Source of the DNA: Aldrovandia affinis
Taxonomy: Eukaryota > Chordata > Actinopteri > Notacanthiformes > Halosauridae
Assembly: GCA_029706075.1 (NCBI GenBank)
Contig: JAINUG010000073.1
Location: forward strand, 872,001 to 936,000
Direction: 5' to 3'
DNA: 64,000 bases
In this document: positions 2,052-26,346 of the stretch, in pieces
Layout: the number at the start of each line of letters is the position of its first letter
Numbering within the stretch: position 1 is the stretch's first letter
Translations under genes and position numbers: made by a program
Notes under the pieces: model-generated
The model's input: the letters and a program-made list of their open reading frames with translations, nothing else
Database searches by the model: none
What the model was told of the DNA's origin: nothing

Positions 2052-2062
2052 AGAGGTCATTA

Positions 2063-3655: not shown

Positions 3656-3719
3656 TAGGACATGATGAGCCTAGATGAGCTGAACGGCCCGTTCTTTATT
3701 ATGTATTCTTAAGTTCTTA

Positions 3720-5162
3720 TTTAAAAAAAGGTTCACTTACAATCCTCATGCCCAGACACAATGTATGCGTTTTGTACCAGAGGGTGATATTTGGGAATTT
3801 TACGCCTTACGATTTTATTCACAAAACTGAATGATTGTTGAGATCGGTCTTCTCTTATCGACAGTCGAGAGAGCACCACTTCAACACTGAACGCTGGACA
3901 CAAGCAAGCTGTGTGCCTGAGACAGTTTATTGACTTTCTTGTGGGAAAATGGTGTCGTATTCCTTCTGCAGACTTCCGGACGCAGGTAGACTCAATGCCA
4001 TGGTGCACTCAGACCGTACTGGCCACATGTGGTGGCCCAACATCCTATTAAGTGACTTAATTTCCTTTTTCCAGTTTTTGTTCACTATCTGACAGAGAGG
4101 CTCGTGAGTAGATTACGGGAGTATACTGAGACCCTATATATGAGTAGATTGAGACCAAATTAGATTCATGGCAACCAGCTGTGGTGTCTACTTGAGGCAT
4201 GACAGAAGCGTGTCTTGCTGAAGATGTTGGAAAACTGATGTGAAGGGGAGTGCAACTCGACAGGATATTTCCGACCCAATCAGTTTGTCTGAAACGTCAG
4301 AAGAACAAATTGAATCAATGTGACATTTAGCGGCTAGCAATAACCCGGCAAGCATGCAAGCAATTTTTTCTCAGGGCATTTTAGTTTCTAGTGCCTTAGT
4401 AAAACTGGCACTCTGAGGTTAAAGCGCTTCTAAACTACAGCATAAAATTGTTAAGTGAACATTACCTTCCATTACTTTTTTCTGCACAATAATAAATCCC
4501 ACGTTCCATATCTTAGTGATATACTGGTTATTGCGTAGGCGTAGTCTTGCCGTGTGTATTTCCAATAAATACTGATACTAAGAGGTTTTATCGGTCTTTG
4601 CAGTGCAGTAAAATAAACTTTTAAGTACTGTGACGTAAAGCAGTAAAAGTTGGATTTGTCTTCCCTTAGGGAGCGATTCTATGCCAGTGTTTTACCCAAG
4701 TGTAAGGGAGCTTCAGTTTCAGATATTTTCACATTCAACTCTACTTAGGAACAGCTTGTGTAGTCCATAAATGAGACTTCAGGAGCAAGACAATCTCAAC
4801 AAATTATAATAAAGTTCTGTGCAACAGAGGGAGGGAACTGATGTAGGCAGGAACTGATGTTTTGTCACTCATTAACAAGCCTTGTTTGGATTTATTTTTC
4901 TTGTCTTTCCTTGTTATAATTTTGTATCTACTTCCCCATCTCCACACTGTTTCAAACGCTTACAGCCTGAGGTGATTTTGGCTGCATTAAATGTTTATTA
5001 CGCAGAAGGTGTCTATCATGATAAAGCGGGAATGCATTTTATTACATATACACAAACTTTATATCAGAGTGTATTAGCCATATCAAGCTTCAACTCTCCT
5101 TTGTATACACAATGTACAAATATTAAATTACATAGATGTAAAAACGTAAACACAAACTAGTC
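3720..5162. other. Intergenic, with an old repeat fragment
   Basis: About 4015-4165 shares TGGTGGCCCAACATCCTATT, TTTTTGTTCACTATCTGACA and GAGTAGATTGAGACCA with 960-1065, so both are fragments of one dispersed repeat. The rest (4170-5160) is AT-rich, without recognisable genes. Confidence 0.45.
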
Positions 5163-5177
5163 AAAAAGACTTGCTTG

Positions 5178-5702
5178 AGGGCCTCCCGGGTGGTCTAGCA
5201 GTTACAACGTTTGACGCTGGCCACTGCGACCGGGGTTCGATTCCACCGGCCGGAGTGCCACCGGGGGGTGGCAATTGGCTGTCCGCCCCAGGGAGGGGGG
5301 AGGGAAGCTGACAGGAAGTTTGCTGTGCACAGGTGTGGCTCTGGAGGAGACGATACTTCGCCTTTGTCACTGCTGGTCTCAGGGCTATGGTAGCGAACAC
5401 ACAATACGAGGGGAGGATTGAGATTAAAAAGAGAGGGTGTAATTGGCTACATTTTTACATTTACATTTTAAGTATTTAGCAGATGCTCTTATCCAGAGCA
5501 ACTTACAAGATGTGCATTAATACATAGTGGGAACAATCATAGTTCGTGCAAGAGATCATTGTAGGCAGCTGTGTACCATACCTGTAACACTGGGAAGGAA
5601 AAGGTTAGTAAATTATATATTTTTAAATTATTAAATGAGTAAGCAGGGCTACTAAATTGGGAGAAAGTGGGATAAAATCAGAAACAAATTCTAAAAAATA
5701 AA
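5178..5702 (+). repeat. tRNA-headed SINE split by a second SINE
   Basis: The head begins GGGCCTCCCGGGTGGTCTAG with a B-box-like GGGTTCGATTCC at about 5223. The body carries GGCAATTGGCTGTCCGCCCC and ends with CTAAATTGGGAG and an A-rich tail. Flanking direct repeats AAAAAGACTTGCTTG (5163-5177) and AAAAAGACTTCCTTG (5703-5717) differ at one position. The 3' part is interrupted at 5451-5646 by another retroposon. Without the insert it matches the 36.1 and 48.2 kb copies through the join (AATTGRCTACTAAATTGGGAG). Confidence 0.8.
5451..5646 (-). repeat. Nested L2-tail SINE
   Basis: This sits inside the SINE at 5178-5702 and is bounded by GGCTAC (5445-5450 and 5647-5652). The plus strand reads TAAGTATTTAGCAGATGC then TCTTATCCAGAGC, the reverse complement of the L2-type 3' hairpin, so it is on the minus strand. 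Its 5' half (CTGTAACACTGGGAAGGAAA) is shared with the copy at 52.85-53.03 kb. Confidence 0.75.
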
Positions 5703-5717
5703 AAAAAGACTTCCTTG

Positions 5718-6579
5718 CAAAAATGTCGCTTGCAAAAATCCTGAAACAAAAGGTTGACAATGAAAATCGTAATTTCAAAGAAAATGTTGAGAAAAATATG
5801 CGTTCATCTTAACGACGTTCACTTAAGCCAGACCAATGTGCCTCATATGCAATGAAACTGTTGCCCTTTTACAATGGATTTAATCTTAGATGCCACAGCA
5901 GAACACAACATGACCATTTCAAGGTTTCCTTTCTGGCCACAGTCAGAGGTTTAACAACTAGTCACTCTCACAGCAGCAAATCCTTGTCTGCGGCGCCGCC
6001 CAACAGTCAAGAGAAGGCTAAAAGTGCATCCTTAAAAGCAGCTCAGGCTCTTGTGTGCAATGACATGCCTCTACAGACAGTGACCTCTTCAGTTTTAATA
6101 TGCCACCTTCTTCTCAGAACTCAGAGTCATCCTATTTTATAGAGCCAATGGAACGTTGGCCCGTTTACCACATATCATTATTCATATTGAAAAGTAAAAA
6201 AATTAACTGACTCATTTTTTTCACTTCTATTCAGAAATGTATTCAGAAAAAAAATAGACTGCCATCAATGCGGGAGAGCGCAGCCCATCGGAACGAGCGC
6301 ATTTCATTGGCTGTTTGCGATTCTTGCTCTCAAGGCCAGATCAGCCTTTTTTTGTTTTAAGTGCACTTCACTTTGGACATCATTATTTTTATCTGTTTAG
6401 GCTATTTGATATCCCGATTGTGTAAAGTCTACATGGGAAGCCTGATGCGGTTGTGACCACATGTTGCAGACAAGCCATGGGCCCTGGCCACCACTGCATC
6501 AAAGAGCATTTGTCTGGTCGTGACAGTTGCCCTTTGTTCACCTTAAAGGGGTTTGAGGACATTCTTACAGATTGCTTTT
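5718..6579. other. Intergenic, no recognisable gene
   Basis: Mixed sequence with an open frame at 5852-6142 that I cannot relate to any family. No repeat boundary was identified. Confidence 0.4.
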
Positions 6580-6777
6580 CAGGGTGTCAAACTCATTCCA
6601 TCGAGGGCAGAGTGTATGCAGGTTTCTGTTGCAACCAATGCATTACACCAGGTGATTTCAATTAGGTTCCCTCCTTAGTTGAAGAAGTGGCTAATTAGTG
6701 AAATCACCTGGTGTAGTGCATTGGTTGCAACAGAAGCCTGCATACACTCGGCCCTTGATGGAATGAGTTTGACACCT
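6580..6777. mobile_element. Foldback MITE, near-perfect palindrome
   Basis: The left arm (about 6580-6665) starts CAGGGTGTCAAACTCATTCC. The right arm (about 6690-6777) ends GGAATGAGTTTGACACCTG, and most of each arm is the reverse complement of the other (TTGCAACCAATGCATTACAC versus GTAGTGCATTGGTTGCAAC). The loop is about 24 bp. Termini starting CAGGG/CAGGT fit a hAT-like non-autonomous element. No clear 8-bp duplication was found. The RNA would form an approximately 85-bp hairpin. Confidence 0.75.
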
Positions 6778-7417
6778 GTGGGTCTTAAATGATCTAACAT
6801 TACATGTCCATTCCTGGAGGACTGGTAGGTGTGCTGTTTTTTGCTGCAGCCCAGCCCTTGAGTGACTGATTTCAGGAGCTGATTGTGAACAAGCTGTGGG
6901 CTTGTGAACACTCACCTTTTTTCCAAGCTTTAATTACCTGTTCAAAGCTTACCTCATAAACACCTCCAGCATACACACCAGCTCACCAGGAATGGAGATG
7001 TGCACTCTTGATCTAAAACTTAACCTGTACGCTTGAGGTCATGGTGTAATTTCTATTTTATTTTAAAAAATACTCAAGTGTTTCCTTTATTTTAGCAGTT
7101 ACCTTTAGCTCTTATATTTTTGGGTCGACACTATAGATACAGAGTGTCACTGGCTTTAAAAAATATATATATATATCTATTTCAGCATTACAAACAGTTT
7201 TATGACCAAACCTCCACTTGAACTCCACTGAATGAACCTCACAAGGCAGCAGCAACAAAGGCCTTGTGACACACTATACACGGAAGGTCCCCAGCTGTGA
7301 TCTCCTCTGAAACTCATAGTCGTAATGAACCTGCATCCACACAAGCCACGGTGGGTGTGGATACTCAAAGCACAAATGGAAAACGAAGAACTTGCTAGCG
7401 TGTGACACTGGACACCA

Positions 7418-7603
7418 GGGGCGATTCTAGGATTTGGCCTTTAGGGGGGCCCCCAATGAGAACGTGAGATGTGCACATGCAAAGCACAAGCCTACATTTT
7501 TAATTAATTTACTGTTGCATTCCCCAACATTTTCAGGGGGGCTGAGATGAAAGACAGGAGGGCTAAAGCCCCCCTAAATAGGGTCTAAAATCACCACTGC
7601 TGG
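7418..7603. mobile_element. MITE-like element with inverted termini
   Basis: The left end reads CCAGGGGCGATTCTAGGATT with GGGGGGCCCCC inside. The right end reads TCTAAAATCACCACTGCTGG. The ends are imperfect inverted repeats. A relative with the ends CAGTGGCGATTTTA and TAAAATCGCCACTG is at 29.26-29.41 kb. No coding capacity. Confidence 0.55.
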
Positions 7604-8155
7604 ACACCCATCGCATGGTGTGAGATGTGTTGGGAATGAATGATTGTGCACTGCTTAACAGTGCAGGGGAGTAATGGGGGCTCACACTGCCATTCTGAGA
7701 GGGATATCTTGGGTTTACAAGCTAGGCATAAAATGATTGTTGTTTCTCTACACCCAGCCATACGGAAAAACAAGACTGAGCAAACCATGCAGCATAGTTT
7801 GGGAAGAAATTCTGAAAAGAGAATATGATTTTCTCTTTTTTCTCTCTTTTTTTATGAGTAAAAATTGAATATTTTATCAGTAATTTCATTTCATATACAA
7901 CCTTATGAAAATGATATATACCGTACAATCTTTAAAAGTGATATACAATATTATATACAATCTTTACAAATTCCCCAAACAGCAGAATCGTAGAAGCCTC
8001 ACGGCTCAGACGTAATCTGGGGGCACACAATGGAACCAGACTGCATAGTGGTAGATAGTGAGCCGTATGCACGCATGTCAATATCAACATATCTTTTGTA
8101 AAAAAATAAAATATATATATATTTTTTAAATAAAATGTTTGTCATGCTTACTGAC
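7604..8155. other. Intergenic, no recognisable gene
   Basis: AT-rich DNA with a (TA)n-like stretch near 8110-8122. No gene or repeat boundary is supported. Confidence 0.4.
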
Positions 8156-8516
8156 AGGCGGCACGGTGGTGCAGTGGATAGCACTGTCGCCTCACAGCAA
8201 GAAGGTCTCGGGTTTGAATCCAGTCCGGGGGCCTTTCTGTGCGGAGTTTGCATGTTCTCCCCGTGTCCGCGTGGGTTTCCTCTGGGTACTCCGGTTTCTT
8301 CCCACAGTCCAAAGACATGCACGTTAGGCTAATTGGAGAGTCTAAATTGCCCATAGGTATGAGTGTGTGAGTGAATGGTGTGTGTGCCCTGCGATGGATT
8401 GGTGACCTGTCCAGGGTTTATTCCTGCCTCTCGCCCCTATGCATGCTGGGATAGGCTCCAGCCCCCCCGCGACCCTGACCAGGAATAAGCGGCTTAGACA
8501 ATGAGATGAGATGAGA
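8156..8516 (+). repeat. Dispersed fish repeat with tRNA-like head
   Basis: It begins GGCGGCACGGTGGTGCAGTGG (A-box-like) with GGGTTTGAATCCAG (B-box-like). It continues through GCGGAGTTTGCATGTTCTCC, CAGTCCAAAGACATGCACG, GGCTAATTGGAGAGTCTAAA and TGCATGCTGGGATAGGCTCC, and ends in a short GATGA repeat. This order is the well-known teleost SINE-like repeat. A second copy is inverted at 29.45-29.80 kb. Family name not assigned. Confidence 0.85.
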
Positions 8517-8519
8517 TGT

Positions 8520-9184
8520 TTACTGACATTTACTTACTTCTATTCCAAGCCATCCGTGAACTCAGTGTGAAAAGTCTCTCTGTGTAAGGGAATAAACTAT
8601 AATGCTGTAACGTTTCCTGGATATGTTCGCCAAGTAACAAGGGATTCCAGGAAATGAGGGATGTTGCTTCAAGTGGGTAAAAATTTAGTTTCTCTACTTT
8701 TTTTTTCTACATTTTGAGATAAGATATGGCTGTATAATTTTTCTTTCCAATGTATTCATTGCCGTCTAAAGGACGTGTTTACCAAACATTTAAATATCTG
8801 GACTCTACTGCATGACTGGAGATTCTGAAATCCAACATGCCCTAAATCTGAAGACTTGAAGCAGGATGCTCCAAAAAATTGTGTAATGGTGTAAAAGGGT
8901 GCTCCAGAATTCAGCAATTAGTATGTTCCAGTGTTCCAGAATTTCTTCCATGCAATGTGAGAGACTTATCAATACTTGACCAGTGACCTTTGACCAGTTA
9001 CTGAATCTAAGGGTGCACTTGCTTTTCCCCACTGGGGTATTCGTATATTGTCTGATGGCTTTTTATTGAGTAGATAATGGAAAAGTTGTGTAAAAACCTT
9101 TGTGTTATTTGCTATATGACATCACCATTTATCAACATTAGGACTTATGTGATGGTGAAATATCATTTTTTTGCCAAAAAACTA
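8520..9184. other. Intergenic, no recognisable gene
   Basis: Unremarkable sequence. Possible degraded internal parts of the Tc1-like remnant that follows cannot be delimited. Confidence 0.35.
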
Positions 9185-9345
9185 GAAATGAGCAGTGGAC
9201 CAGAATCTCTGAGGAATGTTTCCAGCATCTTGCTGAATCCATGCCACGAAGAATTCAGGCTGTTCTGGGGGCTAAGGGGGGTCCTACCCAGTACTGGAAA
9301 GGTGTACCTAATAAAGTGGCCACTGAGTGTATATATATTATTTTG
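9185..9345 (+). pseudogene. Tc1-like transposase C-terminal remnant and 3' end
   Basis: One frame encodes RISEECFQHLAESMPRRIQA then VLGAKGGPTQYWKGV, matching the usual C-terminus of fish Tc1-like transposases (..ESMPRRIxAVxxAKGGPTxY). It is followed by GTACCTAATAAAGTGGCCAC, a common transposon end in fish. The catalytic DDE region is absent. Confidence 0.7.
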
Positions 9346-10189
9346 AACAATTCCTGGTTGATGTTTAGCTATACTGCTTAACCTCCTGTGGCCAGGATCC
9401 CGTTCTTAATAGCGCTCAATCTAAGTATTTCATCAGGGGTTGAAACGTTAACCAACCTGCATGGTTAAATAACACTACTTGGTTACTACACTACACTACT
9501 ACTACGCTACTTTTTCGAGCATCTAAGAAGTGTGCGAGTCTCATTCTTTCAAGTAGCTATGCCTCCTAACCTCCTGTGGCAAGGATCCCTTTCTTAAGAG
9601 CGCACAAGTGCTTCATTGGTAATGCTACAAGTTACTATCAAAGAGGATTGTACCTCGCTTGAAGTAGAGGAGGGGGCGGGGGCACGGTCAGCAGTGACGT
9701 GTTGTTGCCGGGCACTGGCGAATGAGAATGGTCTTCCCTCAGGTTCTGAAACCTGCTGGCCTGCATCGGTCAAGAAGAGCAAAATGCAAAACAGATTCAT
9801 TTTTCATACTTTTAGTAGGGCACAGCAAAGTATTACTGGGGCTCATATCCCAGTAAACGGGGTCTAATGACACCCCTGGTCTACAGTGTGTCCACGTGAG
9901 ATACGGTGCTTCCAAATAAGACAAAAACAGTCACGGAGAATGTCAAACGGCATGAAAAAAAGACACACAAAGCCAGAGTTTCATGAAACATTTACAATAT
10001 ATATTTAAGCACATTTACAGAATTGAACATATCAGATATACAAGCTAAGTGCATACATAAAAGGGTTCTTAAACGTGAAAAGGTTATGTCTATGTCTTCA
10101 AGAATGGATGAAACATGTCAAATTACAAAGCTGTTCTAAACCAAAACCACCCAGACATGAATATTTAATATGCACTTCATTTATTTAAT
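9346..10189. other. Intergenic with a small internal duplication
   Basis: CCTCCTGTGGCCAGGATCCC (about 9381-9400) recurs as CCTCCTGTGGCAAGGATCCC (about 9570-9589), each followed by a TTCTTAA(T/G)AGCGC segment. This suggests a diverged tandem duplication of about 190 bp. No gene seen. Confidence 0.4.
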
Positions 10190-10322
10190 AAGCACTCCCT
10201 GGGGAGTGGCTTTTCCTTGCCACTGTTGCCTCAGGCTTGCCTGTGTGGGGGTTCAGGCCGGGGTCTGCTGTGAACCATATTGTGACAAATGTTCGCTATA
10301 CGAATAAAGTTTGATTGATTCA
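10190..10322 (+). repeat. LINE 3'-end-like fragment
   Basis: It contains TGGCTTTTCCTTGCCACTGT, GCCTCAGGCTTGCCTGTGTG, GGGGGTTCAGGCC and AATAAAGTTTGATTGATT. The same module occurs at 32.83-33.02 kb, and in reverse at 37.33-37.76 kb. It resembles the 3' ends of abundant teleost LINEs. Confidence 0.6.
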
Positions 10323-10324
10323 AA

Positions 10325-12094
10325 AAGAGACACTGTAGAGTCCATCCTTCCAGTGATAGTGTAGGAGTTCAGCCAAAGAGAAAACAAGGGGCTCTACTCT
10401 GATGGGGTTAGCAAAGAAGAAAATGGAGTGCAGTGCAGCATATATTTTATGCTTTTATCAATTAATACAAATATCCAAACAAACCCATACACCTCGAAAA
10501 AGGGAAAGCTGTGTGTTCTAAAAACACACAGGAAAAAAATCGACCTTTTCCTACAGGCTGGTATAACTGAGATCTGGTGTGAACTTTGGGCCTAGATTGA
10601 ATCAATTTTGCTCAACTTTGACAGAAAAATACATGCAAATGTCACTTTTCAGTACTCTTTACTTCATTGTTAAACTGTGTTTGTGGAGAAAGATGACGAC
10701 AAACGCTTGTATTTGATTGTGAGTTCATGTGAAACTGTTGCCTGAATCCAGGACTTAGATGGAACACTAAAATACCCTGTTGAGTTTTCAGCCAATACAA
10801 CCCAAGAGCTTATTTACTACCATGTGCGATTTTCCCTAATCCTGCTCAATTGGTTGCATCAATCATCTATAATCTTCTAAATTCTCCATCACTCTTCAGT
10901 CATTATTTCTTCTTTACCAACCCCTTAGAGCCCGTTACTCTTCTCGAGGGTTCTATGTATCGATTTAATCATTGTACACTTTATTGTGTAACTATCAATT
11001 ATGTTTTAATGCAAACTCTTATTTTCCTTCACTGCATTTAGTGTATTTATAGTTGGTCCATTCTGTACACATCTTTTAAATGAGAAGTGGTTTATTAATA
11101 GTTTTTTTTTACCCTACTTCTGGGCACCATCAAAGTGTAATTTCTGAAGCTGAACCACCGATTAAAATCATATTTTAAAGTACAATTAGAATTTGATTTA
11201 TACGTGTTTTTGATGCCTGGGAAAGCTATTAACTTGTTTCCTGACCCTGCAGAATCGCTGGCCATCATAACTGCCTGCTTTGCATTATAAGTGGGCTACG
11301 GTCATTAAATAAATGACTGCTTCTGCCTAATTACACTCTCTGTGCGAAAACAACACAACAACCGAAAAACACAAGACAACTGCAAAAATATAATAATTCA
11401 GGTCACATTTAACAGCACAAATTTTAAAATATAATTTTCAATAAACAGGAAGGTATGCAGAGAAATTTCACCTCAAGTGCGCACATATGCTCTCAATAAC
11501 TTTGTGACAGTTGATTTATGATATAAATTAAGGCAAGTTAGTGGAGTGCACAGACACTGGTTGTCCTTTGTAATCACAAGTAATACATTCATCGATTGTG
11601 GCTAAAAACCTGTCATGTAATGCATGTCAAGGTGTCTTCAGCATCAGAGTACAAACAAATGACCTTGATCTTAACATAACTGTTTTTGACAAGCAAGAAG
11701 AACACAACTAGAGACCATACGTATTATATACATACTGTAGTGGATTGTATTCAAATCAAAATCAAAATGAGTGACCAGGTAGCACTACTATATGTCACGT
11801 GCACACCCAATATGTTTATAATTTTTCTGTCCGAACAAACAAAAAAATACAGAAAAAAAAAAAAAAAAAAAAAAAAGTAGGGGACAGTATTCATTTTCCA
11901 TGTGTATTCTCTACACAAGCAAGGCAAATTCAATTACAAGAGGTGAAACCAAACACATTCATCGGCATTCATATTTCAGTCCCTTTGCACATAAGGACCT
12001 TTGTACAAGGCTATAAAAACGGATAAATTCAATGTGGGGAATAGGGACCAAAGAGGCTCTGGGATGGGGCGGGATCCTGGGCTTATTTGTTGCA
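10325..12094. other. Intergenic, AT-rich
   Basis: No gene recognised. An A homopolymer lies at about 11853-11876 and TTTTTTTT at 11102-11109. Confidence 0.4.
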
Positions 12095-12470
12095 TTTTTT
12101 AAATATATTTTTTTAAATAATTTTTTCCATATTTTACCCTGTTTATTCCCGTTTTTCTCCCAATTTGGTAGCCAATTACTCCCGCTGTGCTTAGTTCATT
12201 CCCCTCCCTTGTAGTTCGCTGCCGTAGCCCTGTGACCGGCAGTGACAATGGCGAAGCGCTGCCTCCTCCGAGACGGCACTCGTCATGCTGTCGACTGTAA
12301 TTCCGGCACCCCAGAACCACTCCTGTGCGCAGCGAACAGTGTCGGCTTCCCTCCCTCCTCCCTGGGGCGGACAGCCGATTGCTGCCCCGGTGGCACTCCC
12401 GGCCAGAGCCGACTCTGGCGCGACGGGGAATCGAACCCCGGTCGCCGTGGCCAGCATCGGCATTTGTTGC
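12095..12470 (-). repeat. tRNA-headed SINE, near full length
   Basis: On the minus strand the head carries the B-box-like CGGGGTTCGATTCCCCGTCG (12422-12441) and the body GGCAATCGGCTGTCCGCCCC-like sequence. The tail (CCAAATTGGGAGAAAAACGG) ends in A/T-rich sequence near 12095-12130. It is the best reference in the window for the truncated copies at 1.7 kb and elsewhere. Confidence 0.8.
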
Positions 12471-12484
12471 ATTTCTACTGTGTA

Positions 12485-13967
12485 ATCACCTTAACTGCTG
12501 GCCTCGGATTAGGCTTCAAAGGCCTTTTCATTTTTAGCCAGGTGGGATGCTTTCTGGTTTTGAAGAGCTAGAGTGGCAAGCCTCCGTCATTTTAGGATGA
12601 CAGGACAAAATTGGGATTCTTTTTGGGAGGTTTGGCTTGCGGCAAGTGTTACACTAAAAAATTATTAATATGGGCATCCAACAGTGACTAAAAATGTCAG
12701 CATATATTTAATACATCGCTTTGAACTCTTCATGGTTTCAGATGACATAAATGCTATGAAAATGATTGGCAACCTTGACCATGGCTACTATTATAATAAT
12801 AATAATTATTATTATTATAATGTCAGGGTGAAGGTGAATGGCAGCTTGAAAGTAAGTATAATTGGAGAACAAACTGTGGGCAGAGTAAATGTTAGCTTCT
12901 GTCATTGAGTGAAGATGAGTCTATGTGTGTCCTCTCAGTGTAATGGCACATCTGAAATGGCCTTCAGGGCTGTATGTTATTACATGTATGGCCCTTCAGG
13001 TTCAACGTGTCACTCTCCAAGGTGATGCCATTTTCTTTGGTTGCAAGGCTTGAATTACAATCGCACGTCCAAATGCAAAGCGGCACATTGAGGTGACGTG
13101 AGGAGGGGGGAAAAAATGGCATAGTTTAAAAATAGCACATCGAGTTCCACTGCAAAATGTTATCGTTAATATAAAGGTCGTTATGAAATATTTTGAGTAT
13201 CAATCATACTTTTGACAAAGTAAATGAAGAGGAGGACATAGTCATCCTCAAGAGGGGATGTCACCTGACGAGACATCTTCACGGGTTTGAGAACACAGAT
13301 GCAGTTTATCAAATTTATGACAAATAAAACAAGCATCTGCAGCATATAGCAACGCTATAGAAACCAACAGAAAGTGAAGACATTTGCCAATGAATCAAGA
13401 ACGTCACCAGGGGACAGCCAGGGGCCAGAAGGGCAAACGCAAGTAATAAAACAGTTAATCACAACAAAACGCACAACACAATACAGATAGGCAATTTCCA
13501 GAGCCAAAGAATGCATCGGTTGGGCTGGCGCTACACACCTGCTATTGTCCCAACACCTTCCCCGTGCACGGTAGCTACAAAGAACGGCTCGATGTGTTTG
13601 AATTGAAAGGCTAATCAGCACGATGTAGCACAATGGAGTAATGCATCGCACCAGTCCTTCTCGGCTGCAAAGCTTTTAGATTTTCACTCGCATTGAGCTA
13701 CCAAGGGTGGCCACTGATCCGGGGGGTGGGGGAAACCACAAAGACTTAGGGTGTGTCGCCATGTAGGAATCGACCAATCGGTGCTCGTCTGCAGAAAGCC
13801 CCACTGGACACGCGTAGCCTAATCTGTGGATGAGCCTGCGATGGCTGCAGCTGCTGTTGTGCCTTTTTTGGCGAGGCTCAATGTCAACAAGCAGTGGATG
13901 TATCAAGACAACGTCAATATGAATGCGCAAATAGGCGCCACAGCCCAAAAGCTGGAGGTTACCGAAG
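12485..13967. other. Downstream flank of the receptor gene
   Basis: It contains a 30-bp perfect palindrome at 12791-12820 but no recognised exon. 13.3-14.05 kb lies just downstream of the minus-strand receptor stop codon and may be 3' UTR, but I see no convincing minus-strand polyadenylation signal close to the gene. Confidence 0.4.
12791..12820. repeat. 30-bp AT palindrome
   Basis: TTATAATAATAATAA is followed directly by its reverse complement TTATTATTATTATAA, with no spacer. It can extrude as a cruciform. Confidence 0.85.
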
Positions 13968-14056: not shown

Positions 14057-15183
14057 CTAGGCGTTGCCGCTGAAGGACCCGTTGCTCAGCGACGACACCT
14101 TGGTGACCTCGTTGCTGACGGTGGAGAGCGGGAAGCTCTCGTAGCTCTCTGGCGCCCCCCAGCAGCGGCAGCGGTGCAGCGTGGCCTTCAGCTCCTTCTG
14201 GAAGTTGCTGTTGAGGAAGCCGTAGATGATGGGGTTGACGCAGGTGGACGCCATGGCGGTGAGGTGGCAGGCGGAGAAGATGACGTTGTGCTGGCAGGTG
14301 GAGATGGCCTCGTGGTTCCAGTCGAACACCGCGTTGAACACGGTGAGCGGCAGCCAGCAGACGGCGAAGACGGCCACGATGGAGGCCAGCATGGTGTTCA
14401 CGCGCTGGGAGCCCTTGGCCCTCTTCCGGGCCTCGCGCGCGCGCTCCACCATGTCCCTCCGCCGGCGCAGCCGCAGAAAGATGCGCAGGTAGCAGACGAG
14501 GATGAGCACCAGGGGCAGGCAGTACTGGAACAGCAGCAGGGAGGTGGTGTAGGCCAGCCGGTTGCCGTCGGAGGGCCAGCGCTCCATGCACACGAAGTGG
14601 TCGGTGAACGGGTTGAACGGGATGCTCAGGTTCTGGTACGGCGTTGGTGAGGATGTGGAAGGAGAGGAAGGGCAGCGAGATGAAGCAGGCCACCATCCAG
14701 GTGACGGCCACGGCCAGGTAGGAGTGGCCCACCGCCGGCTTCCAGCCCGTGGGGCGCAGGATGAGCTGGTGGCGCTCCAGGGCGATGAGCACCAGGGAGA
14801 AGATGGACACGGTGACGGACATGCACTGGACGAAGGGCGTGACCTTGCAGAGGGCCTCGCCCAGGATCCAACGGTCCATGAGGGTGTAGACGACGGTGAC
14901 CGGCAGACAGACGACGCCCATGAGGATGTCGGAGCAGGAGAGGTTGGCGATGAAGATGTTGGTGACGTTCCTCATCTCCTTCTGCCGCGAGATGACGAAG
15001 ACCAGGCAGGTGTTGCCGATGAGGCCCACGGCGATCACGGTGCTGTAGGCCACGATCAGGAAGGTGGTGCCGCTGGTGGAGGCGGGGCACAGGTCCAGCT
15101 CCTCCCACAGCATCTCGCCCGAGAAGGCTCTGCCTGCTGCTGCTGCTGCTGCTGCTGTCGTTGTTGGCGTGGGGCACATCCAT
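14057..15183 (-). CDS. npy8r: Neuropeptide Y receptor, NPY8/NPY4-like, frame disrupted
   Basis: Class A GPCR for NPY/PYY-type peptides at the plasma membrane, Gi-coupled in known family members. In one frame (upstream part): TM1 with GNTC (GN motif), TM2 [12 protein letters not shown], loop-1 [13 protein letters not shown]3 ending IALERHQLI (ERH in place of DRY, a family hallmark), GWKP in loop 2, and TM4 ending SLPFLSF. In the other frame (14057 to about 14638): loop-2 Cys in [15 protein letters not shown]5 [17 protein letters not shown], a basic loop 3, TM6 [12 protein letters not shown]7 [13 protein letters not shown], helix 8 FQKELK, a palmitoylation-type RCRCWG, and the tail [12 protein letters not shown]; stop at 14059-14057. 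The frames meet at about 14639: either one extra base or two missing. I place the start at ATG 15183-15181 (G at -3 and +4), which opens MDVPHANND, but that frame also shifts in or after a serine (AGC)7 run. ATG 15179 and ATG 15266 are in the TM1 frame. The subtype (Y8 versus Y4) is inferred from remembered family motifs. It could be a pseudogene or carry sequence errors. Confidence 0.85.
15140..15160 (-). repeat. Trinucleotide run in receptor N-terminus
   Basis: Seven AGC/GCA units (CTG on the plus strand) code for Ser in the MDVPHANND frame and for Ala in the TM1 frame. Slippage-prone, and a natural place for a length difference that would change the receptor's N-terminal frame. Confidence 0.8.
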
Positions 15184-15362
15184 GACCGCCAGACGTCAGA
15201 AGGTAGGCAGGCCAACCCGGCTCCCGAGCGGTGGACGCAGTCGTCGGAGAAAATTCTTATTTTCACGCCGCTGTTTTCACTTTGCAGGAGTGCTCATTAC
15301 TCCCCTCCCTGTGCATACAATCAAATCAAGATTGCAGTTTTCGCTTTCCCCCCCACCCCGTG

Positions 15363-15364
15363 TC
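15363..15364 (-). other. Predicted splice acceptor upstream of receptor exon
   Basis: On the minus strand, TTTCTTTGTTTTTC then TTTTTTCTTTACAG precedes ACACGGGG: a long polypyrimidine tract ending in CAG, about 180 bases 5' of the receptor start. This is what a 5'-UTR intron would need. Exon 2 would begin at 15363. Inference only, as no transcript is available. Confidence 0.55.
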
Positions 15365-15369
15365 TGTAA

Positions 15370-17299
15370 AGAAAAAAGAAAAACAAAGAAAAGGTTATGG
15401 TAACATTAGGGAGAAGGAAGAAAAAAAAACCATTTTCATGTAAAATGTTCATGGCAATTATAGGAAACATCACAGGGAGAGGGGGATATTCGGCTGAAAG
15501 AAAATGGATCTGTCAATCAATTAATTTCACAGTGCCAGTGCCTGCATGTGACGTTTTTTCCTGCATGTAAAGCAAAGTGACAAGAAGTTACTCCTCATTA
15601 GAGTGCTGTTCAAAAGTAGCTAGAAGCCAATGATTGCTCTGCCGCCATCCCTGGGTTTTCCACACACACTCCCCCTCTCTTGAGGATAGCTCTTCTGTGT
15701 TTTCAATCACATCTAATAGGGTTTCCACCTGTGCTTTTCAGCAGCAATAGGCTCCGTTTTTAAATTGCTCCCACAAAGAAAATCCACAAAGCAATTTTTC
15801 CACATTTCACATTTGAACCGTCTTAAATACATTTTGTATCAGCAGGTCCACAGCTGTAAGTCTAGATATATTTGTGAACCTTACGTGAGTCTTACAAGGT
15901 GTGTTTTTGTCAGACTGGTAACACTATTTTAATGCCAACATTCAAAACGAATGCCTCATTATGCAAATGCTGTGATATGTGCTGTATTACTGACAAACAC
16001 CTTATTGTTATGAATTGATTTTCAATTATTAGTCCTAGATATAACTAAACTATTTTAAGAGTAATGCTAACAAAGAAATTGGGTAATATTACATTTTGAC
16101 AAAGAGATTATGTTTAATTAAAATATTTTTATAATCATTTTTATGATCATATTTTAATTCAAAGAGACAGGGCCATCTCAAGATATTGCAAACACAATTT
16201 AGAGTTAAAAGCCTCTTAATATATACCAATATATTATCATAGTCATCCTGTCACACTTTCAAAGAAAGCACACATTGTAAAAATAATTAATAATTATGGA
16301 TCGCTCTTATATATTACCTTTCATCTCATGACCTCAGAGCTTATCAGTGAAGGGGGGTAACTCCCCTCTGCCACAACCAATATGTAGCACCCACCTGGGT
16401 AATGCACGGCAGCCATTTTGTGCCAAAACGTTCCCCAAACATCAGCAGAGAAGACGGAGGGAGGGATTAATTTAGCCAGTCATATTAGGGGATGATTACA
16501 GCATCATAATTGAGTGAGAATTGAGTATTTGGTTTTTAAAATAAAATTTATCGAAATGAAAATTGAGCCCAGAAACTTTGGGGTAACCAGAAGGGAAAAA
16601 CTGGAACAAGAAAGACCTTTGAGAAATGTATTATTTAAAGACTGTTTTAAAAAAAATGTTTGGTGCAAGGCTGCATGTACCTCGGACAAAATATGAAAGA
16701 AGCTCTGAAGTGTTGCTTTGCAGGATTTATAGCAGTGTGTGCCTCTCTCGGGTACAGTAACTCGCTGTCACTCTCTGGCCAATGTTCTCTCATCTATAGA
16801 TTATCTGAAATGGCACAGCAGAAGCAGTCAATATACCGATACAAGCCATGCCCGCTTTCCGCTTTCTGTCCTCCTTGAGTGTAGAAAAATCGTTTGCTCT
16901 GTGGTGTAAATTATCTTCTTAATTAACCTATGACTAATTCCCTCTGTTTTTTGTTTTTTTGTTAAAGAGTCATAATTGTAAAACAGTTATAGTTGTCTGT
17001 CTAATCCGTATTATCTTGTCTTTGAAAACTTTTTCTCTCTCTCGTCATCTCTCAATTTTGGTACATGCAGCTGAATTAGGCCAACTGCAGTTTTAAACTT
17101 ACTTCCCTCCTGGTTCTGTCGGAATGATAATGTTACCACTTAATATTTTGTAGTTTTTGCGGTTTTGTTTTTTCTTATATTGTCTTCTGTGCTTTAAACC
17201 TGTTACATGTTAATAAGAAAGAAAAGATAGAATACTGATATTCATAGTATTAGTAGTATTAATAGTAATAGTATCATATGTGTACATATACTGAAAAAT
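15370..17299. other. Upstream/intronic sequence of the receptor gene, no exon seen
   Basis: Mostly unique AT-rich DNA. About 16325-16440 (GAGCTTATCAGTGAAGGGGG through GCACGGCAGCCATTTTGTGC) has the look of a dispersed fish repeat fragment. No coding exon. Confidence 0.4.
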
Positions 17300-17368
17300 G
17301 TCAGCATTCACTACTGTAAGTCTCTTTGGATAATAGCATCTGCTAAATGGCATATTTTATTTGTTGTG

Positions 17369-17402
<34 letters not shown>

Positions 17403-17410
17403 TATATATG
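17300..17410 (+). repeat. SINE tail with L2-type hairpin, then TA/CA microsatellite
   Basis: CATTCACTACTGTAAGTCTC, then TTTGGATAATAGCATCTGCT, then AAATGGCAT is the 3' half of the tRNA-headed SINE seen intact at 20.79 kb. A (TA)n block at 17370-17386 and (CA)n at 17387-17402 follow. Confidence 0.7.
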
Positions 17411-20400
17411 AGGGAGAGAGAGAGACAGAGGTAATCATGAAAAGCAGCAAGTTTATTATATAGTGTAAAAAATGTTTTCTCAAAAAATAAAAAATGTAAC
17501 ATGATATTGTAAGAGAACACCTGTGCCAGCCACGCTAAGCAATGACAGCATGCCTGTTTCAGGTGTGACAACGCATGGCCACAGCAGCGTGCATCAGTGT
17601 AGTTCACTCTCCAGTACTGCATCATATTAACTTGTCCTTGGACATCATGGGCTCGTACATCACTGGACAGAATCGATGAATCATGGGGGGGAAAGCTTTA
17701 AAATGTTAATATTTTACTGAGAGTCAATCTATTCAGTGTCTATAGATAGATGACTATCAGTCGTAAATTATTCTATCTACAGTACATAAACCGTTAGGAT
17801 GGAACTATAGAAAGCCAGCCTCTAAACGCTTTCTAAATGTTCACTGGAAACCGAAAGGAATATAACATTGTCAAAAGTAATATATATTTACCATTATGCA
17901 GTACAGCAGTTTCCTTCTCTATTCTCTTTTTTTTACCACAACAATGCAATTCTCAGATGCATATCAGATGCCAGATGTATTGCTTGGGAAGTCTTCCAGG
18001 TATGGACAGGGGTGCGAATAATCTTTATAGATAAAAAATATATATTACTTGAGGAATTGTACGAGTATAAAATATTATCATTTCCCCATTTTTGAGCATA
18101 CACTAGCCTATAGCTCATTACCTGTATTGCTTATTTTATACAGCCTTTGCTCATCTTTATCAAGGGTGTGAATCATGAGGTTACTGTTTGTGAATATTGT
18201 ATGTGTGTGTGTGTGTGTGTGTAAATCACGACTACACAAGTGGTTCCAGTAATATATAGCATGCCTGTGGTGGCACTCCAGCCCAAGGCAAAGCCAGGGG
18301 CCATAAAGCTCATGGCACCACTGTACTCAATGAGCTACATATGGCTGAATGATGTATACTTCCAATGTATGCCGCAGGCTACCAATCAGAACAAATAGCA
18401 CACTACTAATTAAACTCCCTGCAGTGGGAACAAAATCAAACTCACCTCAAAAACGTTTGATGTAACACACGTAAAATCTACAAAGCGATGTTAGAAAAAA
18501 AGGTGTTCGTGTGTAATGAAGTGCATTGGAAAGCAATGCAATATGTATTTTGTGCTGCGTTACTACCAACAAATAAGCAATGTTTAATTGCGGTGTGTAT
18601 ATAATGGCTGCACAGCGTTTAAATTCAAAATCCGAACTCTCCTTACGCCGTTCCAGTACCCATATAGATGATTTTTTGTGGAACAACCTTAGAGCTGGGG
18701 TGGCATGTATCTTTCCCTAATCATACTGTACCAACCGTTTGTGCTGGTTTTGAGCAAACAGGGCATTAATCAAGTGAAGAGTGATAGATTCAACAATGAT
18801 GAAATGAGTCACTTCATTTCCAGCTTATTTGCATTGCGGTCAACTTGATTTCTGGTGTGGTTACACCAGCCCTACTGTAGTTATGGAACAGAACAGAAAA
18901 GCCAAGTACACAATACAGTAAGAGCCACCTGACGAAGCAATTCATGCAAATTAACCGACTGATCCAAGGTCTGCAGGAGACGCATGTTGATGGAGCCATT
19001 TTAAAAATGGTATTTAATGGAAGAAAAACAAATCAGAGGGGAAAAAAACATTAGAAAACATAGGATGAGAAGAAAACCCTCAAATCTTTCACCTGAAAGT
19101 CATTTCCTCCCCCCCCCACTTATGTTGCATCATTAATTTTATGAATTACTGAAGTCCAAGTCAAATTGAAAACCATTATCACTGGAGATACAATAACATA
19201 AAGATCTTGCGTTCTCATCAGTCTTGACGCCACATCCTGCTAAGAATTGCCTTCGCAGCAGGAGTCTGGTCGGATGCTGTAGCTGATTGAAATGGGCTGC
19301 CTTGGCTTTTTTTTTTATACCTTGATTTTTCTAAAGCAGCACACTGAACACATGGGGCTTGAATCTGGAGACAGAGCTGCATACAGACCTTAAACTGGAA
19401 AGGACGGCTTCACGTCCCTTGTGAAAATAGCAGGACGTTAAACAAGTTGGCTCAAGCCTAAGACTGAACGACAATGAGACAGGTCATTCTGATAACACTC
19501 AGAGTGCCATTGAGAAGGGTGTATTAAATTATCACTTGCGTAGCTTTGAGAGATGACAAGTTTCAACAAGGACTTGTGGGCCATACTATGTAGTATAACA
19601 TTTTGAAACAAGCTGATGGATCAGGTCCTAGTTTTACCCAAATTTCATTTGCCCATGGTTGTATTCAGACTTTTATAAAATGTCTGAAACTGATATGGAT
19701 GAAATGGATAAAAAATATATATATTTGAAGACAGAATTGGAAGCAAAAATTATCTGGCACTCCAGCACAGACCAAACACTAGAGACCGTCTCTTCAGCTA
19801 GAGTGTGGCCTGTATTGGTGCGCCAGAGAATTCGGCTTCCAGTTCTGTCTGCAATTGAACCTCATCTTGCACAGCCAGCACCTCCCGAACAAGAGAAGTG
19901 TGATTGTGCACAAAGATTTTCTATACTCTGATTGGATTTTAAAAAACACATACCCGTAGATACAGATACTTATCCACCCATACTTTTTCGTGTGGAAAGA
20001 TAGTGGGCAGAGGGTCTGAAGAGATTGCAACATGTCCACACTTGGATGACCAGACATAAAACAGAAGACCATTACCATCTTCGATTACCAATGCCTGCGA
20101 ACCCGCAACGCGCAAGCTCGCCTCAGATCCAGCACTTCCTGAGATTCAATTTACGCTCAATGGCTTTTTCAATAGCAAAAATATGAAACGGGGTGTTTTA
20201 GATAAAAGGGCAGATGAAATCAATGCACACAGGCCTGCATTCTGATTATAGACATGATTTTTTGTTCCTTATTGCTCTCCTATGAAGCTTTACAGGGGCA
20301 AATGAAATGAAAATCAAATGCAATTAAAAGTCATCAAAGTGTGAGATAAGGCACGCAGGAATGGCCCAGCGGGTCGACGGTATAATTTCGCCTCTCGGAC

Positions 20401-20783
20401 GTAAAGAATGAACCCGCTCCAGGTACACTGGGAAGGGTTTAGGGCCGGGATTACAATCCAATTACAGTGCCAGATCCTGTCGATTCACCTCTCGCCACGA
20501 GTCTCAGGCAAACTCACTTTCCTGCGAGAGGTGGAAATGAAAGCAAACGGCTCTCTGATGGAAATGTAAACCCTGGCTTTTGTGAAGCCGGGATGAGACC
20601 GCCGAGCAACTCCGGGGCTCATTCCAAGGGTCAGGAGCGCCGGTCAATTGGAATGTACTTTGCGGGCCTGACGTGGGCTTGTCAAGGGCACCTCAATCTG
20701 CGAGGGTAAAATCTTAACCCGGCACGCAGTGTGTCTGCTGGCAAAAAAATTATCTTGACTCTAGAAGGAGGATATAATCCTTA
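17411..20783. other. Putative receptor intron, mostly unique sequence
   Basis: No exon or complete repeat. A (GT)n run is at about 18201-18222 and a C run at 19110-19119. Segment 20340-20760 is less AT-rich and free of recognised repeats. It reads like possible conserved non-coding DNA, but that can only be tested by alignment. Confidence 0.35.
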
Positions 20784-20935
20784 GTTCTGTGTGGCTCAGT
20801 AGGTAGAGCATGGCGTCGACAACGCTTAGGCTGTGGGTTCGATCCCACTGGGACCACGTATACTGAAAAATGTATGCATTCACTACTGTAAGTCACTTTG
20901 GATAAAAGCATCTGCTAAATGGCATATGCTATGTT
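20784..20935 (+). repeat. tRNA-headed SINE with L2 hairpin tail (reference copy)
   Basis: A-box TGGCTCAGTAGGTAGAGCA and B-box GGGTTCGATCCC are spaced as in a tRNA gene. A linker (TATGCATTCACTACTGTAAG) follows, then TCACTTTGGATAAAAGCATC and TGCTAAATGG. This is a complete SINE: Pol III head plus LINE-derived tail. Other copies: 17.3 kb (tail), 47.4 and 55.7 kb (inverted), 59.46 kb, and 62.27 kb (head). Confidence 0.85.
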
Positions 20936-21004
20936 ATAATCGGCACATACCAGAACTGATGGTCAAAGCTCATTGCCACGAGTGCCTTCCGCAGCCATCT
21001 ATTG

Positions 21005-21140
21005 TACATTTACATTTGAGCCATTTAGCAGACGCTCTTATCCAGAGCGACTTACACAATTTCTTAACATACAATCCATTTATACAGCTGGATATTTTAC
21101 TGAAGCAATTCAGGTTAAGTACCTTGCTCAAGGGCACATT
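21005..21140 (-). repeat. L2-tail SINE fragment
   Basis: The plus strand reads CATTTAGCAGACGCTCTTATC then CAGAGCGACTTACA, the reverse complement of the GGATA-loop hairpin with a perfect 6-bp stem (CGCTCT/AGAGCG). The following sequence (CAATCCATTTATACAGCTGG) is shared with the 33.9 kb copy. Confidence 0.75.
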
Positions 21141-21260
21141 TTACATTACATTTACATTTTAAGCATTTAGCAGACGCTCTTAACCAGAGCGACTTACAAG
21201 TTGTGCATTAATGCAAGGTAAGAACAATCATAGTTAGCGCACAAGATCAGTGCAGTAAAA
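21141..21260 (-). repeat. L2-tail SINE fragment, second subtype
   Basis: Directly adjacent to the previous fragment, in the same orientation. TAAGCATTTAGCAGACGC then TCTTAACCAGAGCG, where the loop has changed from GGATA to GGTTA. It is followed by GTGCATTAATGCAAGGTAAG as in the 5.5, 52.9 and 60.1 kb copies. Confidence 0.75.
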
Positions 21261-23995
21261 TGGCAATAGACATCTTGTGGGGACAGAAAAACAGACGTCT
21301 CGTCCCCTTGCAGTGAACACACATGACAATTCCATCGAGGCCTTGCATGTACCGCAAACATCTAGAAAACATATGCGCCCTGATGGAAAAATGCAAACAG
21401 CTAGTCTGAGACAACGAACCCGCCGGGGAGCCGATAGCCATGCACTGGGATGGACGGATCGTCTGTGGGCGGGGGGGACAGGAAACAGGAAGCTGCTCTG
21501 ATTAACCCGGATGTCTGGTCTGACCTTGGGACTGCATGAACAGATCCAAGGCTCCCACGTTGGCTCAGAATAAACAAGCACATTTGTGAACTGTCCAGTG
21601 AGAACTTTTCTGAGTCAATTTCTATCCCCTGTTTTTTGTGTGTGTGTGTGGGGGCAGGATAACTGCACTGCAGTCCTGTGGCTGAGATGAGCAGGCATTT
21701 GGCATTGGGGGGCCGGGGGATACGCTGTATGCAAAGCTGGCGCTGGTAGACTGCAACACCTTATCAACCCGGAGGAGTTGCTTTTGTACACTGAGGCGGG
21801 GGCAACCTGCCAACCGAAGCCCTCTCTCCCTGGGGCGACGCTGGGGCTAATTGAAGAGTGTTTTGGGGGACTCAGTGGACTGGGGGCATTGTATTATTTT
21901 TCTGATAAATGGTTAGATATTTGCAGTTTTACTTTTACACTGTTATTCTTAGGGATTCAAGTATTAAAATGTGATTTTTCATGCAAAAAAGCTCCAATTA
22001 AAATAAACAAAAAAAAATTATTTTCTCAGAATTGGTCAAAAGTGAGTTTTGTAAAAACACTCTTCAATCATGCTTCCTCCCCACAGGGCTCCTGGTCGCA
22101 GTCGGAAGCGGTGGCAGGGTCAGCGTTTGATTCCTGATTCTGGACCACATGCCTGCTCCAAGCACTAGCGCCTCAGCCGAAAAGCGCTGCCTGGGTGACA
22201 AACATTCAAACCGCATTTTCGTTTCAATCAGCCACTGGAAATAGAATAATCTCTTCACAGCTGTGGATGGCGTTAACCGCGTGAGCAGGAGCCTGGGAAC
22301 ACGCGCACTGCCCCTGTGACGAATTCAAATGCCCTACGATTCTTTCAACTGCTGGAACTCCCCAGAGACCCTATGATTACCCACATCACAGACACTCTCG
22401 AGCGCGCATCGTGCTCGCATCGTGCTCTGCCAGTTCGGACACCTCTCGGCGTACGCGTTAAATGTCTTGAATGAAAAACCTCTTAGTGATGCAACACTTG
22501 GACATCTGCCACGGACAGCAGCACTCAACAGGCTGAAAGGCAGACGAATGTTTGAGTCTGTCCACAAGGCTCCTAGATCACTTTGATGGATTAACATCAT
22601 GGCACTGTAGCAGGCTGGAATGAGTCGGGCACCCATAGTCTTCCCCCCTGGGGTGTCTCCCAAACCACCATGCGAATCAAATATTCTGAGAGGTTTCCCT
22701 GTTCACACATTATATAAAATCAACCAAGCCAACTGACAGTTACATGCCGGTTATGAGTGAGTGGTGACGATTGACATTCTACGTTCTTACCTACATCAGG
22801 ACAATTTTTTTTCTTTTTTTATATGTTTTTTCAAATAATACAAAATGGAATACAAGCAATGATGTTTCAGACAGTGAAAAGAGAACCAGGGATGATGTGC
22901 ATCTAATATTGAACATATATATTTTTTAATTGATTCCCCCCCCCAATCAAATCTTTTAGACTCTACATTAATTTTCATCTTTTTACTTCTGTGTTTCCAT
23001 TGAAATAAAAATTACTCCTGATAATTCCCAATAGTGCAAAAATATATATATATTTTTTTAAATCTCATTTTATGAAAAAAAAAAAACAAAACACTGTGGA
23101 CAACAGGAATACGTTCAGCTGTGACAGGGAGGGAATATCCTCTGAAGTGTGCAAAAAATGTTAACACACATTTGCCATCCATACTCAATACTGGTAGAAC
23201 CATTCAATACTGGTAGAACCACCCACCTGGGATTGCATTTATACTGTAAATGATGCATACTGCACACAACACCAGCATTACAAACCTAGGGGTTCTCATT
23301 CATACACACACACACACACACAAGCCACGCAGTGAAGAAACAGTGCTATCCCAGGGAGCCATTTAGTGATCTCTACAGAGCAAGCTTTGTCAGTTAAGTA
23401 TTTGTATTTAAGAGTTGTTTTAGGTGGTACGTTCTTTTAGTTAATTTTAAGTGGTTTCAGCTTTCTAAATCCGTTTCTCCTGAAGGGGTAAGCGTGTAGA
23501 TTCTTATAGGGCATATAGGGCTGGTGGCAATTTATACAAATGGCCCATGACATAATACATACACCCCTCTCAGTTCCCTTATAGAGAAACCTGCTCAAAT
23601 TTAGTGTTTTGTTTGGTGAATAAATTCCCTTTCCTTGCTATCTTTTATTGCACCTTGGATTGCCTGATATTGATCAGGATTTCTGTTCATTTGTGATTAG
23701 TTTGAGGTCTCCCCTATTCTTGCAAACACCCACAATGTCCCCCACAGAAATCCATCACGGCCGTGATCATGTTGTGATAACAAATAATAATTCTCATTTA
23801 AGATTACCGACGGGGTTAGAGAGTAGAACAGGCAGCAGCCCGCCCGGCACTTTTAAAACAATCGACTGACACAAACCAAGACATTTGGGAAAATCTGCTT
23901 TGAATGTGGGCAAGATTATATGGTCACACTTCTGCTTCGACTAATTAAAATGTTCACTTTTAACAATGTAAGGTAGGCTGTGTGTGCATTCTACG

Positions 23996-24038
<43 letters not shown>

Positions 24039-25359
24039 ATGCACACTCACACACACACACATATGCGTGCGCGCACACACACGTACATACATAGAATATT
24101 GATGCCAAGGACCAGTTTACTGAAGGTGCATTGGATAGTTGTCATCTTGGGCTTGGCAACATCTGTACAACATATCTGTCTCCTCACACTTCTCATTGGT
24201 GCAGTTAATAACATTTTGTGGAAAATCAATTCCCTGGTGGCACATCTGCTTCCCATCAACATTTTCCTAGAGTAGGCTACAGTAGCCTATGTCTGTATAA
24301 TAACCATACAGCAAAACTCCTGGACGCCGCTTTAACGATCAGAACCACAGTTCGTTCCAAATATTAAATCAAAACTCTCCCCTTTTTGGCACTTTTGACC
24401 TGACCGGGGAAAAAAAAGACTGATGACGTTTGGTTGGCAATCGGATCATTTTCGTTTGAAATCACATATTAAACAAGGTGAAGTTAAAATAAGCGTGAGT
24501 GTGGATGATTTTGATTTGACTACGCTTCAAACGAAAGGGTCCGAATTAGAAGAAAAAAAAACCTCTAGCTTTGTCTTCACAGTTTCCAGTTATAATTTCA
24601 ACAAAGGTGAATGGAATCTTCAGGTTAGGCTACACTTTACTGTGCACTTATAGTGAAAATCCATAATTTGTGCCGTAAAAAAATCACATCAACCACCATT
24701 CTTTCTGTATTTGAATACAACCTTCAAGTCAACGCAAATAAAACAACCGGTTTAATCAAAATCCAATTAAAACCCCGTTACTTGTAGACGGACTCTAGAT
24801 GCACGTCTCATACTCGTTATCAGTATGTTTTACAATATTCTTGTTTCGGAAAGGTGTTGTAGTAGCCCGAGGACTCGAGATGGATTAAGTCATTAAAATG
24901 ACTACAGAAGTTCAGTCGACAGAAAACAAAATGTTTCTAAACCCATTATGAGAGCGAGATACCAGGGGTTCCGATGAAAATAATCACTGCCAATCACATT
25001 ATTGTTGTAATTTTAAAGTAAACCTGGGACGCAATGTTTCTCAATAACCGGCTTTATGTTTTAGGGATTTATTTAGGCTGACTTTGGGTGGATGGGGGGG
25101 GGGCAATTTATATTGTTTCTACAGTATTTTTTATAATCAAAATCTGAAGCTTGCGTTGATTGTACAATGCAATAACTGAAACTGATTTTAATTCATCTCG
25201 CGCAAAATATGACCAAAGTATTGGTCAGAGCATATAACAGAACTATAGCATAAAACTAATTCTTACGCGTTACAAGCATAATTATAAAAAATAATATTAC
25301 AACGTAGGCTACTCCCAACAAATTAGGGAGTATGATATAGTGCGTTGGCTATAACTTAC
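21261..25359. other. Putative receptor intron, microsatellites only
   Basis: Contains a perfect direct repeat of about 19 bp at 23185-23222 (TTCAATACTGGTAGAACCA twice), (AC)n at 23303-23322, and (AC)n at 23998-24036 with imperfect continuation to about 24083. The ORF at 21778-22137 is not recognised. Confidence 0.45.
23998..24083 (+). repeat. AC microsatellite, compound
   Basis: About 19 uninterrupted AC units, followed by imperfect AC/GC-rich units (CACACACATATGCGTGCGCG). Confidence 0.9.
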
Positions 25360-25645
25360 CTTTAAAAAGAAGATATTTCCGCCCCCAAAAAATGTGTTCA
25401 GTGCGTGCTCGCGGAGTTGTATGGGCTGGCACGGGCTCGTATCGCAAGTGGAGGGAACGCTTTGCGGGTCGTGGATGTAAACGCGTCCTTTCAAGCAATC
25501 CCTGGAAACGCACGCAGGCAGGTAGGTAGGGGGCGGTTTATCGGCATCAAACAACGGCGCTGGATTTCTCTTAAAGAGACACAGGGCTGCAAACAACCCA
25601 ACGTTTGTTTTCCTTTTTGATAAGCGGCAGATTAAGCCATCAGAG
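25360..25645 (-). other. npy8r: Predicted non-coding first exon of the receptor gene
   Basis: On the minus strand TTTTTAAAG|GTAAGTTAT (exon end 25360) is a near-consensus 5' splice site. A TATAAATA box lies at 25682-25675, giving an expected start near 25645 and an exon of about 285 bases. The segment is more GC- and CpG-rich than its surroundings. The nearest good minus-strand acceptor before a coding exon is at 15364, so the intron would be about 10 kb. The exon has an ATG at 25659 only if transcription starts further upstream. All of this is inferred from signals; it could belong to another transcript. Confidence 0.4.
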
Positions 25646-25674
25646 CCCGCCTGAAGCAACAGACGTTTCCGCTG

Positions 25675-25682
25675 TATTTATA
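25675..25682 (-). promoter_or_regulatory. TATA box, minus strand
   Basis: TATAAATA on the minus strand within GGCAGTATAAATACAGCGGA, about 30 bases upstream of the predicted first exon. Confidence 0.45.
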
Positions 25683-25768
25683 CTGCCTCTTTAGAAAGCC
25701 TACATTACGATTTTCCTGACAGATCCCAGACCGGTCTCGATTGAACAGAAGGGGAATATGTCTTAAAA

Positions 25769-26327: not shown

Positions 26328-26346
26328 TCTTAAACAATCTGTAAAT

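Follow-up and report, generated by a model that had tools for sequence, protein, structure and literature searches.

An NPY receptor exon of the Y1 subfamily, most likely Y8, with two frame breaks in an assembly of the halosaur Aldrovandia affinis

The coding intron of the Y1 receptor gene sits after TM5. Among the NPY receptors, Y1 alone is described as having an intron in its coding region (PMC3591787), and introns have been reported for fugu Y8a (PMC2453138). In the alignment of PMC3591787, every coelacanth and human receptor carries between one and three NxS/T sites in its N-terminus, and an NxS/T site lies in extracellular loop 2 (EL2) of coelacanth Y6 and Y8 and of human Y1 and Y4; the same source gives the cysteines of these receptors, which lie in the N-terminus, in EL3, as a pair in EL1 and EL2, and in the tail. 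Published dN/dS values for Y8 are low, at 0.0916 for npy8ar and 0.0988 for npy8br (PMC9177570), and loss of such a receptor should therefore be uncommon.

We analysed a window of 64,000 bases from A. affinis (assembly GCA_029706075.1, contig JAINUG010000073.1, positions 872,001 to 936,000, forward strand). An NPY receptor coding exon of the Y1 subfamily, most likely Y8, lies on the minus strand at 14057-15183, from an ATG at 15183 to a TAG ending at 14057. Where one uninterrupted open frame is expected of a working receptor gene, the assembly has two breaks. In the sense direction, a short N-terminal stretch in its own frame (15126-15183) leads to a first frame break within 15118-15129. A TM1-TM4 block in one open frame follows (14642-15128), then a second break in EL2 within 14638-14645. 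The rest of the loop, TM5-TM7 and the tail again form one open frame (14057-14638), which closes with the native stop at 14059-14057.

Both blocks matched Pfam 7tm_1 (1.1e-31 for TM1-TM4 and 5e-27 for TM5-tail). The best PDB match of each half was NPY receptor type 1, with 184 bits for the N-terminal half and 214 bits for the C-terminal half; type 4 scored 182 and 167 bits, respectively, and was the best match when the TM5 and TM7 pieces were searched separately. Over 148 aligned residues of the N-terminal half, identity is 83 residues with type 1 and 83 with type 4, both of which we take to be human chains. From its match to the solved Y1 and Y4 receptors over TM1-TM7, the exon is assigned to the NPY receptor family, Y1 subfamily, and by family membership its product would be a seven-helix receptor for NPY/PYY peptides. 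The cysteines expected of the family are all present, in the N-terminus, EL3, the EL1-EL2 pair and the tail (DLCP, STCQ, ALCK, FVCM, RCRC). The initial annotation, made from the letters of the DNA, had described TM1-TM4 and TM5-tail as intact and one base apart in frame. Both (15113-14642 and 14638-14057, minus strand) were indeed open and offset by one base, with the 7tm_1 and type 1 matches given above, and the landmarks it had listed (ERH, CWLP, NPIIY and the EL1/EL2 cysteines) were all found.

The third position is G or C in 346 of the 350 codons (98.9%), and thus the reading frame can be traced closely. The cox5b exons, 43 kb away, have a GC3 of 66%, so the bias is a property of the gene and not of the whole window. 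Several further frames across the exon are also open, and open frames are weak evidence here. The breaks were placed with a frame model whose input was position-specific base frequencies only.

For the EL2 break, 98% of the posterior fell at 14645-14638, in agreement with the join that had been proposed at ∼14639; the string that the initial annotation quoted for the join is present, but at 14631-14647, one base off where it had been put. The sense of the break is +1 (one base more) or −2 (two fewer). The distance from the partner of the last residue of the N-terminal half to the loop cysteine is 18 residues in type 4 (182 to 201) and 16 in type 1. The C-terminal block here has 16 residues before this cysteine, plus the content of the broken stretch, so the type 4 spacing fits a loss of two bases. 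Amplicon lengths in fugu (PMC2453138) give the same shift modulo 3 for both Y8 genes. The Y8b product, 460 bp in fugu and 461 here, would imply one base gained, a figure that depends on a weak reverse-primer match, and the Y8a product, 481 less a 63-bp extra exon, or 418 in fugu versus 416 here, would imply two bases lost, assuming that the fugu product contains the extra exon. Thus, the loop may either have lost two bases (Y4 spacing, Y8a amplicon) or gained one (Y8b amplicon). An intron in the loop, as in fugu Y8a, was rejected, since the two blocks adjoin one another directly. A cryptic intron of 193 bases, as in fugu Y8b, was also rejected: the exon region contains three GT-AG pairs with this exact spacing, and the break lies within none of them.

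The EL2 break had been reported as a single frame change. The break itself stands, but it is not the only one: the frame from ATG 15183 (the MDVPHANND frame) differs from the TM1 frame and joins it at ∼15129-15118 through a shift of the same sense (+1 or −2), so the view of the EL2 break as a solitary lesion is unsupported. The posterior for this N-terminal break, 92% of which fell within 15129-15125, places it just past an (AGC)7 repeat in the coding region (15136-15156, minus strand). On codon statistics the upstream frame led by 11.07 nats in the 8 codons that precede the repeat, and by 41.92 nats when 16 codons were counted. Of 332 windows that each covered 8 undisputed codons, one preferred the wrong frame, with a margin of 3.04. 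Over the exon, the model expected 2.0 shifts of +1/−2 sense, and it returned the same 2.0 when repeated with a free starting phase from either ATG (penalties 1e-5 and 1e-7). In 300 mock intact genes made from the same codons, the expected number of shifts never rose above 0.5 (maximum 0.19).

The number of breaks would fall to one if translation began at ATG 15179 or ATG 15113 and the upstream frame were a low-complexity coincidence. ATG 15179 (the MCPTPTTT frame) lies only 4 bases downstream of ATG 15183 and is already in the TM1 frame. At the loosest penalty (1e-3) the model expected 2.03 shifts, with opposite-sense shifts adding 0.05 from 15183 or 0.355 from 15179, and from 15179 the TM1 frame kept 0.31 at the first base. 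Against this, the preference of the codon statistics for the upstream frame holds without the repeat, whose excision (from 15183, penalties 1e-3 and 1e-5) left the two-shift result unchanged. ATG 15183 has G at −3 and +4 and an in-frame stop 15 bases upstream, whereas ATG 15179 has T at both positions. The N-terminal NxS/T site (NDS) occurs only in the ATG 15183 frame and is absent from the TM1 frame that ATG 15179 opens. We consider a single break unlikely, and give it some weight because the disputed stretch is short and partly repeat; it bears on the break count and is compatible with either a consensus error or a loss.

Read as assembled, the sequence makes a receptor from none of the three start codons tried. 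ATG 15183 gives 185 residues of nonsense, and ATG 15179 and ATG 15113 give 403 and 381 residues, respectively, both with correct TM1-TM4 and both with their last 224 residues out of frame, open to 13968.

The subtype is probably Y8. The exon runs from TM5 through the tail with no gap, which disfavours Y1 proper with its coding intron. The fugu primer sequences printed in PMC2453138 were compared with the exon. The Y8b forward primer matched at 19 of 21 positions at 14876, the expected place, and the reverse primer at 14 of 21, tied with an unrelated place. For Y8a the matches were 16/20 (forward) and 16/23 (reverse), and for Y4 they were 18/25 (forward) and 12/21 (reverse, at an unrelated place). 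The NxS site of EL2 is present as NLS, residues 3-5 of the C-terminal block, and does not discriminate Y8 from Y6 or Y4. A Y6 identity would also be compatible with the tests run on the exon.

Signs of decay in the exon are few, and the coding signal is undamaged on either side of both breaks. Neutral decay was simulated from the present sequence with transitions weighted twofold and CpG sites given a sixfold mutability, a run being counted as surviving if it had gained no stop codon and no more than 4 new A/T third positions. Survival was 0.97 at 0.2% divergence, 0.90 at 0.5%, 0.66 at 1%, 0.36 at 1.5%, 0.16 at 2% and 0.018 at 3%; at 5% and at 10%, none of the 2,000 runs survived. If the exon is a pseudogene, constraint would have ended less than ∼2.5% neutral divergence ago under the assumed mutation model, and this bound is generous because all 4 observed A/T third positions are allowed as new. 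An old pseudogene is rejected by the simulation, in keeping with the initial annotation, which had argued against one; the lack of any stop in the 350 codons and their GC3 point the same way.

The exon thus belongs either to an intact gene that was misread or to a gene lost very recently; neither outcome would be unusual. At a probability of about 0.5, we infer that the gene would be intact in the animal, both breaks being small consensus errors in an exon that contains a repeat and is rich in GC (65%); sequence alone cannot tell such errors from a young inactivation. Consensus error is favoured by the near-complete GC3, the lack of stops and the presence of the family motifs, by the low published dN/dS of Y8, and by the base composition of the exon (GC 0.646) and the position of one break beside a triplet repeat. 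Of BUSCO genes, 2.2% carry frameshift errors in VGP assemblies, against 4.9% in other genomes (PMC13320880), and by our own estimate a fresh loss is rarer than these rates. Against consensus error, the EL2 break, as assembled, lies outside any long homopolymer, and one or two indels are also to be expected in a young pseudogene. The intact cox5b and piggyBac frames elsewhere in the window also argue weakly against a uniform error rate: 2 breaks in the 1,127 bases of the receptor versus none in 1,350 other coding bases has a probability of 0.09 under such a rate (0.61 with the cox5b control alone), a comparison that addresses uniform error and not error confined to GC-rich sequence, since the controls have a lower GC (0.578 and 0.477). 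A homopolymer census of the window was uninformative on assembly quality either way.

If the inactivation were instead real and very young, whether fixed or segregating, the two breaks would be in the DNA of the animal, constraint would have ended and there would have been too little time for further damage. Two independent breaks arise more easily by decay than by error where the other coding sequence of the window is clean, the exon is compatible with up to ∼2% neutral divergence, and subtypes of this receptor family have been lost repeatedly, as Y6 was in primates, pig and guinea-pig (PMC3591787). The exon has acquired no stop and lost no motif, however, and the published constraint on Y8 is strong (PMC9177570). 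Types 1 and 4 share the same residue at 113 positions, of which the exon retains 97 and differs at 16, a count in which decay and normal divergence are indistinguishable without a working Y8 reference. We regard a young loss as slightly less probable than consensus error. The breaks could also be real in a gene still in use, if programmed +1 frameshifting or other recoding at both sites yielded the full receptor. Both breaks do have the same sense, as +1 shifting requires, but two sites would be needed within one message, and inspection by eye revealed no known shift site. We know of no programmed shift site in GPCR genes, and consider recoding highly improbable.

No second copy of the receptor was seen in the window, where blastn returned the self match only. 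With tblastx, four short rows of 18-32 codons were obtained outside the exon, at 31-56% identity and E 1.9e-4; these were taken as chance matches in GC-rich or repeat sequence. Searches for relatives with the C-terminal block as the only query gave 11 pattern matches in viral_contigs and 69 in genome_contigs, none of which was confirmed. No published frame-broken fish NPY receptor was found among the papers listed, and a literature search with peptide words returned one nematode paper.

Two other coding features were identified in the window. The gene for cytochrome c oxidase subunit 5B, cox5b, has three intact exons at 58767-60288 on the plus strand, ∼43 kb from the receptor, with matching GT-AG borders; a COX5B match below the Pfam cut-off was confirmed by PDB searches, and the exons (282 bases, GC 0.578, GC3 0.66) contain no breaks. 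COX5B lies on human chromosome 2. That chromosome carries a few of the families of the Y8 region according to PMC2453138, the main text of which does not name COX5B. A piggyBac-type transposase frame (PF13843, 1.1e-62) occupies 62930-64000 on the plus strand and is open to the end of the window; it has 1,068 bases, a GC of 0.477 and no breaks, and a long GT repeat lies just upstream.

A Pfam scan of 10 of the 104 frames of at least 90 codons gave one match. The search for neighbouring genes used 20 long translations with stops written as X (all six frames of 1-13502, 15301-30299 and 30301-45299, one of the six frames of 45301-60297, and one control). No family was found for the positive control, which held the receptor C-terminal block in frame, even though this block reaches 95 bits when searched by itself, and the negatives from these translations therefore carry no weight. 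Similarly, a scan for 30-codon stretches of high GC3 found long runs in the receptor only; it missed cox5b (GC3 0.66) and is therefore no test for other genes.

Repeats are present throughout. Four SINE copies, each combining a tRNA-like head with a UnaL2-like 3′ tail, lie at 20778-20945 (plus), 47370-47538 (minus), 55700-55870 (minus) and 59457-59625 (plus), and are 85-92% identical in pairwise comparisons; Rfam recognised both parts in the first three copies but neither part in the fourth. Isolated UnaL2 tails were found by Rfam at 17303, 21015, 21157, 33921 and 52289, giving eight UnaL2-type 3′ elements in the window, three of them behind recognised tRNA-like heads. UnaL2 is a fish element, and its presence points to a ray-finned fish. 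An inverted pair of a roughly 350-base repeat (8160-8514 and 29457-29798) is 90% identical, and a direct repeat (25761-26298 and 44711-45265) is 78% identical over 575 aligned columns.

Should the breaks prove to be errors, their consequence would lie in annotation: a pipeline would split the gene or call a pseudogene, and a Y8-type receptor would wrongly be recorded as absent from the species. If they are real, the receptor would have been lost very recently, in a family in which the loss of subtypes serves lineage comparisons of feeding control. In either case, the extreme GC3 let a simple frame model locate a break in a fast-changing N-terminus that was beyond the reach of the protein searches used here.

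Compared with the receptors described to date, the exon resembles the ray-finned fish Y8 (npy8ar/npy8br, formerly Yc/Yb) in its Y1-subfamily sequence, in the lack of any interruption past TM5, in its EL2 NxS site and in the cysteines of the N-terminus and EL3. Its length is also similar, at ∼374-375 codons by our count versus 377 in carp npy8br. It differs from these receptors in its two frame breaks, its N-terminal AGC repeat and its 99% GC at third positions. In fugu Y8a, EL2 is the site of an intron (PMC2453138), whereas here the two blocks abut directly. The cryptic intron of fugu Y8b (amplicons of 460 and 267 bp) presumably leads to a partial receptor (PMC2453138). The mammalian Y6 pseudogenes offer a parallel in a receptor of the same subfamily, disabled there in several lineages (PMC3591787); in contrast to them, the breaks in the A. 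affinis exon are very young at most and perhaps not real, and the subtype is probably a different one.
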